Assembly: GCA_016928165.1 (NCBI GenBank)
Contig: JAFGLH010000118.1
Coordinates: forward strand, 1-60,564
Reading direction: 5' to 3'
Length of the DNA stretch: 60,564 bases
Origin: Pirellulales bacterium
GTDB taxonomy: Bacteria; Planctomycetota; Planctomycetia; Pirellulales; Thermoguttaceae
Part shown: piece after piece, positions 1 through 58,031 of the stretch
Layout: the number at the start of each line of letters is the position of its first letter
Numbering within the stretch: position 1 is the stretch's first letter
Program-made: the position numbers and the translations under genes
The notes under the pieces: generated by a model
Seen by the model: the letters and a program-made list of their open reading frames with translations, nothing else
The model's database searches: none
Told to the model about the DNA's origin: nothing

Positions 1-90
1 ACTGGCTCATTTTTTCGCCCTTTCAAGGGCGAAAAATGTGCCTGTCCCCTTCACCGCCGAGGGGGACAGTCCCCTGTGAACGGTTACCAT
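1..90. repeat. Family C palindromic element, truncated by the window edge
   Basis: This is the right part of the element seen again at 57888-58031. It has a hairpin of TTTTCGCCCTT and AAGGGCGAAAA arms, then GTGCCTGTCCCC, and a right end reading CAGTCCCCTGTGAACGG then TTACC. The copy lacks the 35-nt nested palindrome present in the other one. The left end lies outside the window. The rest of the gap, to about 319, holds only degenerate GGTCGGTGG-like repeats and no gene that I can see. Confidence 0.8.
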
Positions 91-2363: not shown

Positions 2364-3782
2364 TTATGAAATGAGTCCCGCGACCTCTTCGCACAACCGA
2401 GCGGCCTCCGCCTCGGTCGGGGCCTCGGCAATCGCCCGGACGATCGGCTCCGTGTTGCTGCCGCGGACCAGCAGCCAGCGGTCCGGCCAGTCGAGCCGCA
2501 GGCCGTCGAGCCGGTCGGCCGTCGCGTCGGCAAAGCGTTTTTCCAACGAATCAAACAGGGCCGGCAGTTTTTCCGTCGGAAAAGACATTTTCGTCTTTAC
2601 GATCTCGTAGCGCGGCAACTCGTCGGCCAGTTGGGCGACCGACGTCTCTCGGGCGGCCATTGCGCTGAGCAGCAGCGCCATGCCGACGAAGCTGTCGCGG
2701 ACGTAGCCGACTCGCGGGTCGATCGGTCCGCCATTGCCTTCGCCGCCGAAGACGGCCCCGCGTTCGATCATCGCGTCGGCCACGTTCGCCTCGCCGACGG
2801 CCGACCGGAAAAACGCAGCGCCGTGCCGGATGGCGATGTCTTGCGACATGCGGCTGCTGGCGCAATTGGCGACGATCGCGGGGACCGCCTCAATTTTTGC
2901 GGCGGGAGAAACATCGCCGTTCACGGCGGTTTTTTCGCCGCAAAAATGGGACCGTCCTCTTTGCCGCAACACATGCTCCACGCACATTGCCAGCGTATAT
3001 TCTTCGCCCAAGTATCGACCTGAGGCGTCGATCACCGCCAGGCGATCGGCGTCAGGGTCTTGGCAGAAGCCGATCTCCGCGTTGTGCTCGACGACGCTTT
3101 CCAGCACGCCGGCGAGGTTTTCGGCGGTCGGCTCGGCGGGATGCGCAAACCGGCCGTTGGGTTCCCCGCCGAGGACCGTCGCCCGACAGCCGAGTTCGCC
3201 GAGCAACCGCCTTCCCAGTATGCCTCCGGCCCCGTGGTTGCTGTCGAGCAATACGCGGAAACGGCGGCTTCGGATCCGTTCGACATCGACGGTATCCAAC
3301 ACCGCCCGGAGGTGCTCGCCGATCGTATCGTCGCAGGATGGGATGCCGTCAATAGAGTCGGCGTCACAGCCGGGCAAGCCGGCGGCGGCACAACTTCGGT
3401 ATCGTTCGAGGACTATTTGTCCCGGCCCGGCGGAAATGACTCGCCCTTGGTCCGAGAAGAGCTTCATGCCGTTGTAACGCGGCGGGTTGTGGCTGGCGGT
3501 GATTTGCACGGCCCCGGCCGCCTTGCGGCTTCGCACCAGTACGCCGACGGTCGGCGTGGCGGCGATGCCGGCGTCGATTGTATCTCGGCCGGCTACCCGC
3601 AGCGCGGCGTGTATTGTCCGGGCCAGCATTTCTCCGGAGGGGCGACTGTCGCGGGCGACGAGCACCTCGCCCGGCGGCGCCTCGGCGGCGAAGGCCGCCG
3701 CATAGCGCGCGGCCACTTCGGCAGTGAGCGTCTCGCCCACGATCCCCCGCAATCCGGAAACGGTGATAATCGGTTCGGTCAT
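2364..3782 (-). CDS. glmM: Phosphoglucosamine mutase / phosphomannomutase family, with an in-frame insertion
   Basis: This alpha-D-phosphohexomutase of 472 residues interconverts hexose-1- and hexose-6-phosphates. GlmM makes glucosamine-1-phosphate for UDP-GlcNAc and peptidoglycan or lipid A. The phosphoserine loop is TASHNP (95-100, Ser97), the Mg-binding loop is DPDADR (242-247) and the sugar-binding loop is GEGNGG (347-352). Residues about 275-299 (SHFCGEKTAVNGDV and flanks) have no counterpart in the family as I know it. They are encoded by a palindromic repeat (2886-2960), so the gene carries an in-frame insertion between helix VLRQ and strand AIVANC. The frame is kept and all active-site loops are intact, so the enzyme is probably functional. 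GlmM versus phosphomannomutase cannot be settled from motifs alone. Confidence 0.88.
   Translation of the reverse strand: MTEPIITVSGLRGIVGETLTAEVAARYAAAFAAEAPPGEVLVARDSRPSGEMLARTIHAALRVAGRDTIDAGIAATPTVGVLVRSRKAAGAVQITASHNPPRYNGMKLFSDQGRVISAGPGQIVLERYRSCAAAGLPGCDADSIDGIPSCDDTIGEHLRAVLDTVDVERIRSRRFRVLLDSNHGAGGILGRRLLGELGCRATVLGGEPNGRFAHPAEPTAENLAGVLESVVEHNAEIGFCQDPDADRLAVIDASGRYLGEEYTLAMCVEHVLRQRGRSHFCGEKTAVNGDVSPAAKIEAVPAIVANCASSRMSQDIAIRHGAAFFRSAVGEANVADAMIERGAVFGGEGNGGPIDPRVGYVRDSFVGMALLLSAMAARETSVAQLADELPRYEIVKTKMSFPTEKLPALFDSLEKRFADATADRLDGLRLDWPDRWLLVRGSNTEPIVRAIAEAPTEAEAARLCEEVAGLIS
2886..2960. repeat. Palindromic element inside the phosphohexomutase gene
   Basis: Perfect 12-bp arms ATTTTTGCGGCG (2893-2904) and CGCCGCAAAAAT (2936-2947) flank an inner palindrome CGCCGTTCACGGCG (2915-2928). 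The core CCGTTCACGG followed by GGGACCGTCC resembles the ends of the family C element at 57888-58031. About 72-75 nt were added without breaking the frame. Confidence 0.7.
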
Positions 3783-6895: not shown

Positions 6896-9631
6896 ATGGA
6901 CCAATCAAATAAGACTTCCCATGCTCCCGACGCCGATCCCCAGGAAACCGCCGAGTGGATCGACGCGCTCGAATACGTAATTGCTTCCGGCGGCCGCGAC
7001 CGGGCTGAGTATCTGCTCTCCCGGCTGAAGCAGCACGCCTTCAACCGCGGCGTTTGCCCGGCCGGCGTATCGACCACGCCCTACGTCAACACGATCCCCG
7101 CCGCCGAACAGCCCGCGTATCCCGGCGACAGGGAAATCGAGCGCCGCATCAAGCACATCATCCGCTGGAACGCGATGGCGATGGTCGTCCGGGCGAATAA
7201 GCACAGCCCCGGCATCGGCGGACACATATCGACCTACGCTTCGGCGGCCACGCTCTACGAAGTGGCCTTTAACCACTTCCTCCACGGCAAGGAAGGAAAG
7301 CATCCACCCGATCAGGTCTTTTTCCAGGGCCACGCCGCGCCGGGCATCTACGCCCGGGCGTACCTGCTCGGTCGGCTCAATGAAGACCACTTGAAAAACT
7401 TCCGCCGCGAACTGCAACTCGAGCCGGGGCTTTCGTCGTATCCGCATCCTTGGTTGATGCCCGACTTCTGGGAATTCCCCACCGTGTCAATGGGTTTGGG
7501 GCCGATCATGGCGATCTACCAGGCCCGCTTCAATCACTACCTGGTCGATCGGGGCATCAAGCCCGACGCCCAGGCGTCGCGCGTTTGGGCGTTCCTCGGC
7601 GACGGCGAGTGCGACGAGCCGGAGACGCTCGGGGCGATCACACTAGCCGCCCGCGAAAAACTCGACAACTTGATATTCGTCGTCAACTGCAACCTACAGC
7701 GGCTCGACGGACCGGTTCGCGGCAACGGTAAAATCATCCAGGAATTGGAAGGGGCCTTCCGCGGCGCCGGATGGAACGTGATAAAAGTCGTCTGGGGATC
7801 CGACTGGGACCCGCTGCTGGCCCGCGATCAAGACGGACTGTTGGTCCGCCGGATGGGTGAGGTGGTCGACGGCGAGTATCAGAAATACGTCGTCGCCGGC
7901 GGCGAATATATTCGCAGGCACTTCTTCGGCGTCGATCCGCGGTTCGAGGCGATGGTCGCCGAGATGAGCAACGAGCAACTGCATCGTCTTTCCCGCGGCG
8001 GACACGACCCGGCCAAGGTCTACGCCGCGATGAAGGCGGCCGTCGAACACCGCTGCGCGCCGACCGTCATCCTCGCGCAGACGATCAAAGGCTACGGACT
8101 GGGCGAGGCCGGCGAAGGACGCAACATCACCCACCAGCAAAAGAAGCTCAACGAGGATGAACTGGTCGCCTTTCGCGGCCGGTTCAACATCCCAATCTCC
8201 GAGGACGCCGCCCGTCGGGCCGAGTTCTACAAGCCGCCGACCGACAGCCCCGAAATGCAATATCTCCTCGGCCATCGCAAGGCGCTGAGCGGCTTCGTGC
8301 CCGGACGCCGGGCGCCAACCGTGAAGCTCAAGCCGCCCAAGTGGGAAGATTTGGCCGAGTTCTTCGCCGGCAGCGACGGCCGCGAGGTCTCGACCACGAT
8401 GGCCTTCGTCCGGCTGCTCTCGCACCTGATGCGCGACAAGCAGATCGGGCGGTTCGTCGTGCCCATCGTCCCCGACGAGGCCCGCACCTTCGGCATGGAG
8501 GCGCTGTTTCGCCAATTCGGCATTTATTCCCACGCCGGGCAACTCTACGAGCCGGTCGATTCCGACGCGATCATGTACTATCGCGAGGCGACCGACGGGC
8601 AAATTCTCGAGGAGGGAATTACCGAGGCCGGCTCGATGGCGTCGTTCATCGCCGCCGGCACCGCCCACAGCAGCCACGGAATCAGCATGATTCCGTTCTT
8701 CATCTACTATTCGATGTTTGGCTTCCAGCGGATCGGCGACCTGCTTTGGGCGGCCGGCGACATGCGCTCCCGCGGCTTCGTCCTCGGCGGCACCGCCGGA
8801 CGGACCACACTGGCAGGCGAAGGTCTCCAACACCAGGACGGCAACAGCCACCTGAATGCAATGGCCTTCCCCAACTGCCATGCCTACGATCCCTGCTATG
8901 CCTACGAGATGGCGGTAATCGTGCTGGACGGGCTGCGGCGGATGTTTTTCGAGGAGGAGGACTGCTTCTATTACATCACGCTGATGAACGAAAATTACGC
9001 CATGCCGATCCTGCCGCAAGGCTCGACCGAGGGCATCACTCGGGGCATCTATAAGCTCTCTTCGCGCGAACTCGGTCAAAAAACGCCGCACGTAAGGCTC
9101 TTTGGCTCCGGGGCGATCCTGCGGGAATCGCTGCGCGCGCAGGAATTGTTGGCCGATAAGTTCCTCGTCGGCAGCGACGTGTTCAGTGTGACCAGCTACA
9201 AGAGCCTCTATTACGACGGCCGCGAGTGCGACCGTTGGAACCGACTGCACCCGACCGAAGAGCCTTGCAAGCCTTTTGTTTCCCAGGTGTTGGCCGACGG
9301 ATCGGGTCCGGTCGTCGCGGCGCTTGATTACGTCTCGGCCGTGGGGTTTTCGATTTCACCTTGGGTTACTACCCCCCCTCGCCCTTTGGAAGAGGGGCCA
9401 GGGGTGAGGGCAACCGGCGCTTCGTCATTCGTCGTCCTCGGCGCCGACGGCTTCGGCCGCAGCGAAGCGCGCAAGGAGTTGCGGCGTTTCTTCGAGGTTG
9501 ACGCCGAGAACATCGCCCTGGCCGCGTTGGTCGAATTGGCCCGCGAGGGCAAATACCCCCAAGAAAAACTCTCCGCCGCGATCAAAACCCTCGGTCTCGA
9601 TCCCGACAAGCCGAACCCGGTAACGGCGTGA
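6896..9631 (+). CDS. aceE: Pyruvate dehydrogenase E1 component, homodimeric (AceE)
   Basis: This thiamine-diphosphate enzyme decarboxylates pyruvate and passes the acetyl group to the E2 lipoyl domain, feeding acetyl-CoA to the TCA cycle. The length is 911 residues (E. coli AceE is 887). Family segments include HSPGIGGHISTYASAATLYEV, the ThDP-binding GDGECDEPET and FVVNCNLQRLDGPVRGN, GLGEAGEGRNITHQQKK, EGITEAGSMASF, and the C-terminal VVLGADGFGRSEARKELRRFFEVD. Residues about 825-840 (TTPPRPLEEGPGVRAT) are about 16 more than E. coli AceE has between its conserved ALDY and LGADG segments. They are encoded by repeat-like DNA (9368-9415). E2 and E3 genes are not adjacent. No clear ribosome site precedes the ATG. 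Confidence 0.95.
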   Translation: MDQSNKTSHAPDADPQETAEWIDALEYVIASGGRDRAEYLLSRLKQHAFNRGVCPAGVSTTPYVNTIPAAEQPAYPGDREIERRIKHIIRWNAMAMVVRANKHSPGIGGHISTYASAATLYEVAFNHFLHGKEGKHPPDQVFFQGHAAPGIYARAYLLGRLNEDHLKNFRRELQLEPGLSSYPHPWLMPDFWEFPTVSMGLGPIMAIYQARFNHYLVDRGIKPDAQASRVWAFLGDGECDEPETLGAITLAAREKLDNLIFVVNCNLQRLDGPVRGNGKIIQELEGAFRGAGWNVIKVVWGSDWDPLLARDQDGLLVRRMGEVVDGEYQKYVVAGGEYIRRHFFGVDPRFEAMVAEMSNEQLHRLSRGGHDPAKVYAAMKAAVEHRCAPTVILAQTIKGYGLGEAGEGRNITHQQKKLNEDELVAFRGRFNIPISEDAARRAEFYKPPTDSPEMQYLLGHRKALSGFVPGRRAPTVKLKPPKWEDLAEFFAGSDGREVSTTMAFVRLLSHLMRDKQIGRFVVPIVPDEARTFGMEALFRQFGIYSHAGQLYEPVDSDAIMYYREATDGQILEEGITEAGSMASFIAAGTAHSSHGISMIPFFIYYSMFGFQRIGDLLWAAGDMRSRGFVLGGTAGRTTLAGEGLQHQDGNSHLNAMAFPNCHAYDPCYAYEMAVIVLDGLRRMFFEEEDCFYYITLMNENYAMPILPQGSTEGITRGIYKLSSRELGQKTPHVRLFGSGAILRESLRAQELLADKFLVGSDVFSVTSYKSLYYDGRECDRWNRLHPTEEPCKPFVSQVLADGSGPVVAALDYVSAVGFSISPWVTTPPRPLEEGPGVRATGASSFVVLGADGFGRSEARKELRRFFEVDAENIALAALVELAREGKYPQEKLSAAIKTLGLDPDKPNPVTA
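9368..9415. repeat. Dispersed CTCGCCCTTTGG-type repeat in frame inside aceE
   Basis: CTCGCCCTTTGGAAGAGGGG followed by a few bases and GGGGTGAGGGC matches the intergenic repeat at 10277-10320 (CTCGCCCTTTGGGAGAGGGG, then GGGGTGAGGGC), 0.9 kb downstream. A similar stretch is at 37331-37372. About 48 nt were added, a multiple of three. Confidence 0.8.
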
Positions 9632-57887: not shown

Positions 57888-58031
57888 GTAACCGTTCACG
57901 GACCGGGGACTGGCTCATTTTTCGCCCTTTCAAGGGCGAAAAATGTGCCTGTCCCCTTCACCGCCGAGGGGGATAGCCCCATTTTCGCGGTGAACCGCGA
58001 AAATCGGGACAGTCCCCCGTGAACGGTTACC
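57888..58031. mobile_element. Family C palindromic element with nested palindrome and 7-bp target duplication
   Basis: The ends are GTAACCGTTCACGG on the left and CCGTGAACGGTTAC on the right. ACATATT occurs directly on both sides (57881-57887 and 58032-58038). Inside are the TTTCGCCCTTTCAAGGGCGAAA hairpin and a nested ATTTTCGCGGTGAACCGCGAAAAT that is absent from the copy at 1-90. It lies between the WXG-like gene and the FtsK ATPase start and must be transcribed if these are one operon. Confidence 0.85.

Follow-up and report, generated by a model that had tools for sequence, protein, structure and literature searches.

Palindromic repeats that are translated in frame as part of a protein were described in Rickettsia as Rickettsia palindromic elements, or RPE (Ogata et al. 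2000, 2002; PMC10969869, PMC3733652), and tagged REPs inside genes were reported by Di Nocera et al. (2013) from various bacteria, among them Opitutus terrae, a member of the PVC superphylum (PMC3733652). The best-known cases of coding palindromes come from Rickettsia, which is intracellular and has a reduced genome. Because in-frame palindromes are already known from Rickettsia and tagged REPs from elsewhere (PMC3733652), the behaviour of the coding palindromes presented here is not new. The host considered here (G000) is a fragmented MAG of 3.6 Mb from Pirellulales (Planctomycetota), and the genomes compared with it are likewise MAGs. Window refers to the whole stretch of DNA that was analysed, 60,564 nucleotides long.

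A palindromic element in frame within a glmM-type gene

The gene and the parts of the element that it carries are as follows.

2364-3782, minus strand: glmM-type phosphoglucosamine mutase gene of 472 aa that carries the insertion (ORF, Pfam PGM_PMM I-IV, TIGR03990)
2879-2969, minus strand: family Z palindromic element, whole profile match (nhmmer, 27 other Z copies, E = 3.5e-15)
2880-2959, minus strand: element core GAGGACGGTCCC...GCGGTCCCC, coding for RGRSHFCGEKTAVNGDVSPAAKIEAVP, residues 275-301 (congeners and about 95 other orthologues aligned)
2936-2947, minus strand: palindrome 5′ arm on the coding strand, ATTTTTGCGGCG
2893-2904, minus strand: palindrome 3′ arm on the coding strand, CGCCGCAAAAAT
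2916-2927, no strand assigned: inner palindrome GCCGTTCACGGC, within the element's variable centre, weak taken alone

The encoded phosphohexomutase has the full set of four PGM_PMM domains (Pfam I-IV), and its best-matching model was TIGR03990, phosphoglucosamine mutase. The ORF was uninterrupted across the inserted segment, and codon usage agreed with coding on either side. The catalytic serine loop (S97-H98-N99-P100), the metal loop (D242-P-D-A-D-R247), the sugar loop (G347-E-G..G352) and the phosphate loop (R440..N443-T-E-P446..R449) were all present, and these four motifs occupy positions that are invariant or near-invariant in an alignment of 27 orthologues. We infer from the intact catalytic motifs alone that the enzyme function was apparently kept. 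With the insert, the focal protein scored slightly below the GlmM cut-off of 439 bits (431.7), and the congener proteins scored above it (442.9 and 469.2).

Compared to both congener proteins, with which it shares 78-79% identity, the focal GlmM had a net gain of 24 residues (72 bp) in frame inside residues 275-301, reading HVLRQRGRSHFCGEKTAVNGDVSPAAKIEAVPAIVANC where the congeners have HVLRRQKGPVVANC. Neither congener had the insertion, nor did any of the other orthologues among the 98 measured. The loop at this position was 18 residues long in 75 of the 98 orthologues, 19-37 residues in about 20 of them, from other planctomycetes, and 42 residues in the focal protein. An inverted repeat of 12 bp was found at the loop in the focal gene only; in the others it did not exceed 9 bp. 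The ATTTTTGCGGCG and CGCCGCAAAAAT arms matched perfectly over these 12 bp, and GGGGAC-type ends were located at 2948-2959 and 2880-2886. For the segment as single-stranded DNA, only one of 200 dinucleotide shuffles folded at least as well (z -3.1), and the trimmed element gave a z of -4.9. The inner CCGTTCACGG had 25 matches at up to two mismatches compared to 15.8 expected and was dropped as a connection to other repeats, being too weak. It is weak evidence alone, and family membership is supported by the outer arms and the ends.

The original prediction, made from sequence alone, was a palindromic insert in frame in a GlmM-type gene with an open frame and intact catalytic loops, all of which held, the insert being supported by the arms, the open ORF and the folding. 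Its extent, given as 2886-2960, was corrected since the element is longer and the family profile matches 2969-2879, and the predicted addition of about 25 residues (275-299) became a net 24 (72 bp) within 275-301. The inner palindrome, which had been taken as a family-like feature, did not suffice; membership came instead from the outer arms and ends.

An AlphaFold2 model of the focal GlmM, built with 27 orthologues, had a mean pLDDT of 86 and a pTM of 0.88. The only segments of at least three residues with a pLDDT below 50 were 134-140 and 278-297, the latter being the insert, which connects the helix at 260-280 with the strand at 303-306. The model aligned to solved PGM/PMM enzymes with a TM of 0.88, and when the sequence was aligned with 9du5, the two sides of the insert were two residues apart. 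The model thus predicts that the insert forms a disordered loop and that the fold is preserved. The insert is located in the loop between the helix and the strand, as seen in the AlphaFold2 model, with the catalytic motifs kept.

Repeat families across genomes

The GlmM insert is a diverged full-length copy of family Z, which has the layout GGGGACNGTCCC-ATTTTYGCGGCG-centre-CGCCGCRAAAAT-GGGACNGTCCCC. Degraded GGGGACNGTCCC copies form its ends, and its arms carry a paired change relative to the Z consensus. The Z profile was made from 27 copies with all window copies excluded, and it recovered the focal segment over its full length, with the E value given above. The GGGGACNGTCCC end motif was present 323 times in G000 (162 + 161), compared to once (0 + 1) for the reversed control. 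It was counted 113 and 138 times in the two congeners and 657 times in G004, was nearly missing from most other genomes of the order, and was frequent again (134-847 times) in scattered lineages including G034, G068, G098, G112 and G065.

The GGGGACNGTCCC superfamily splits into composites, family Z and family Y. The composites have a 49-bp core with CCGTTCAC ends and were non-coding where tested, family Z is about 81-84 bp long with a variable centre, and its sister family Y is 75 bp long. The Y query copy was open in all six frames, which occurred in 0.7% of shuffles, and a 142-bp composite had stops in five of six frames. An Rfam search gave no match. Stem tags were nearly missing from 27 Z and 28 Y copies, with GTAG in none of the 55 and CGTC in one. 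Two composites lie in the window.

57891-58027, no strand assigned: composite repeat of the GGGGACNGTCCC superfamily, 49-bp core type, with ACCGTTCAC ends (Z profile E = 4.8e-12)
1-84, no strand assigned: truncated composite repeat of the GGGGACNGTCCC superfamily at the contig end

Many contigs of G000 start or stop in a composite GGGGACNGTCCC repeat (window 1-84, L111, L113, L124 and L122). Because so many contigs begin or end inside it, this repeat probably breaks the assembly. Two other repeats were observed in the window. The palindromic 31-nt TGTTGGGGTGGCAGTTGAACTGCCACCCCAA has ten copies, at 2306, 10336, 13081, 22083, 29455, 30561, 39445, 41512, 43550 and 58873, and CTCCCCTCTCCCTTTGGGAGAGGGG is repeated at 9365, 10270, 37323, 58031 and 59281, and also in L171 and L172.

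Other in-frame copies and empty sites

Coding copies were surveyed in 60 stretches and the window, about 718 kb. In-frame copies of the Z and Y families were found in about ten further genes of G000, and more in congeners. In the sampled part of G000, Z/Y-type copies were in frame in PurL (two), LeuC (two), BioA, INO1, PfkB, LigT, DUF2344 and BatA. Additional in-frame copies were present in PPK, XseA, a glycosyltransferase, a helicase, an acyl-CoA dehydrogenase, PdxA, AcrB, a P-type ATPase, a sulfatase and others. Judged by reading frame and codon usage at 59 loci, family Y was coding in 18 of 29 copies and family Z in 6 of 30; these fractions do not represent a random sample because the first 20 stretches were picked for holding the motif. 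The coding Y copies were read in several frames and in both orientations. The GlmM and INO1 inserts used an identical reading frame and shared the peptide pattern xGxSHFxGE...AAKIxxVP.

These genes were compared at the same sites between G000 and G001, G002 and G004. The sites in GlmM, LigT, PfkB, BatA and LeuC (site 1) were empty in both congeners, the DUF2344 site was empty in G001 and G004, and the sites in XseA, PPK and the glycosyltransferase were empty in the sister genome with the frame intact. In INO1, an identical element was present in G000 and G001 and none in G002, the much closer sister. At one PurL site, G000 carried an element of 44 bp and G002 one of family Y, and G001 and G004 were empty. 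At the second PurL site, and likewise in BioA, different species held unrelated repeats. These comparisons showed a dispersed family, insertion in frame, empty sites, and gain or loss between sister species. No clean target-site duplication was seen in the filled and empty pairs, at 84-99% flanking identity, and the flanks beside the insert had diverged; 10-25 bp of the target adjoining the insert often differed between the filled and the empty site.

Two side observations concern the same genes. The PurL gene of G001 (L174) carries a further in-frame palindrome, GTTAAAGGGGTCGGGAGTCTTTG...CAAAGACTCCCGACCCCTTTAAC, where G000 and G002 have family Y, and a sequence related to CTCCCCTCTCCCTTTGGGAGAGGGG is in frame in BioA of G001 and G002, where G000 has family Y.

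The original prediction also fared well against relatives. The orthologue alignment confirmed that the insertion, about 24 aa long, is lineage-specific, the search for other coding copies yielded those in about ten further genes and in congeners, and the disordered loop in the structural model favoured it. A conserved segment without palindromic DNA in relatives, or a frameshift at the site, would have refuted it, and neither was found. Its claim of Rickettsia palindromic element behaviour in an unrelated phylum was supported for the behaviour only, as both the sequence and the host phylum differ.

Arm co-variation and the search for the mover

Two features, arm co-variation and flank complementarity, limit the possible mechanisms. 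In family Y, 98.5% of the arm pairs were formed, with 24 double changes compared to 4.6 in shuffles, and the lengths of the A- and T-tracts agreed in nearly all copies. Outside the Y core, the two flanks of a copy tended to be complementary to each other, at 2.55 of 3 positions, compared to 1.85 when flanks were permuted among loci (z = 8). The flanks are complementary past the core in a locus-specific manner, for example at L239, L240 and L246. Template-switch correction, insertion into a palindromic target or a hairpin-ended intermediate could each possibly explain the flank complementarity, and the data do not decide between them.

No enzyme that moves the Z and Y repeats was identified. 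A RAYT (Y1) mover was rejected, as none of the Y1 loci that were read, among about 50 in 16 genomes, was directly flanked by these repeats. The RAYT-like Y1 genes of L062 and L057 have palindromes of their own, GGCCCGTTTACGGGCC and GCCCGGCGTTTACGCCGGG, unlike the focal families. A match next to TnpA/TnpB in L049 was dropped as an IS end when the right-hand copy proved, by its reading frame, to be TnpB coding sequence. Among the ORFs between neighbouring copies (about 718 kb, judged by eye), no transposase was recognised and no parent IS was found.

Discussion

The GlmM segment is likely a copy of a short, non-coding and non-autonomous mobile palindrome, family Z, that was inserted after the split from the two sequenced congeners. 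We infer that copying depends on an enzyme provided in trans. This enzyme would most likely act on a folded single strand in an HUH/Y1-like manner, as proposed for REPs, an inference with little direct support. Insertion would be blind to genes, and purifying selection would retain intragenic copies only if their net length is divisible by three, the frame is open and the loop is tolerant. The palindrome may be preserved through paired changes, perhaps by template-switch correction, and the inserted peptide would be tolerated baggage and no adaptation.

The best surviving alternative, though an unlikely one, is a classical MITE moved by a DDE transposase that makes target-site duplications. 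The elements are indeed short, inverted-repeat, multicopy and without coding capacity, but no clean target-site duplication was seen in filled and empty pairs at 84-99% flanking identity, whose flanks had diverged beside the insert, and no parent IS was found between neighbouring copies in about 718 kb. We consider it very unlikely that the element was domesticated, with an mRNA hairpin or the inserted peptide having a regulatory or structural role and being kept by selection. The co-varying Y arms (98.5% paired, with 24 double changes compared to 4.6 in shuffles) and the paired change from the Z consensus in the focal arms speak for such a role. However, presence differs between close sister species, the genes that are struck are unrelated, the inner sequence is found in both orientations and several frames, one site can hold different palindromes in different species, and co-variation is also expected from neutral template-switch correction.

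A mere change in the length of a variable loop, with palindromic DNA arising by chance, can practically be ruled out: the loop does vary (about 20 of 98 orthologues have 19-37 residues), but a long inverted repeat is unique to the focal loop (12 bp compared to at most 9 bp), and the match to an independent repeat family (E = 3.5e-15) refutes chance. An assembly artefact is no more credible, for although the MAG is fragmented and many contigs stop inside related repeats, the gene is in frame on both sides with 78-79% identity to congeners, the site is over 2.3 kb away from either end of a 60-kb contig, the focal copy has diverged from all other copies found, and independent MAGs show the same phenomenon.

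A bolder version of the family Z insertion account is possible, though less likely than not, in which the planctomycete elements have adapted to life within proteins (family Y comprises 25 codons and is open in six frames) through a mechanism that gives locus-specific inverted flanks and complementary arms. If this were true, there would be a steady supply of 20-30-residue insertions in housekeeping enzymes. The repeats call for caution in annotation, as the focal GlmM with its insert scores slightly below a cut-off that its congeners pass and related repeats probably fragment the assembly.

Compared to known systems, the elements resemble bacterial MITEs in being short, non-autonomous, inverted-repeat and multicopy, with in-frame fusions possible (PMC10969869), but may differ in that no clean target-site duplication was seen beside the diverged flanks and no parent IS between neighbouring copies. 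They resemble the intragenic GTAG/CGTC REPs of Opitutus terrae (PMC3733652) in being short ORF palindromes in a PVC genome that hit some genes twice and insert 20-30 residues. In contrast to tagged REPs, they lack the GTAG or CGTC tag in all but one copy, their arms are longer, and no RAYT gene flanked by Z/Y repeats was seen at the loci surveyed. As with RPE, dispersed palindromes are in frame in many unrelated housekeeping genes and also intergenic, about 20-50 residues are encoded, gene function is apparently kept and insert-free orthologues exist. Unlike RPE, they have a different sequence, measure 75-84 bp compared to about 100-150 bp, reside in a planctomycete with a 3.6-Mb genome and lack the CGTC tag of two RPE families (PMC3733652). 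The Z and Y elements behave like RPE; membership in RPE is not shown. No description of planctomycete coding palindromes was found in the open-access literature searched, and within that literature neither these families nor the preference of Y for coding sequence, the missing tags, the planctomycete host or the polymorphism between sister species is apparently described. The same behaviour is now seen in Pirellulales with larger genomes, where sister species differ in copies at 84-99% flanking DNA identity, and insertion tempo, loss and tolerance can therefore be studied directly.
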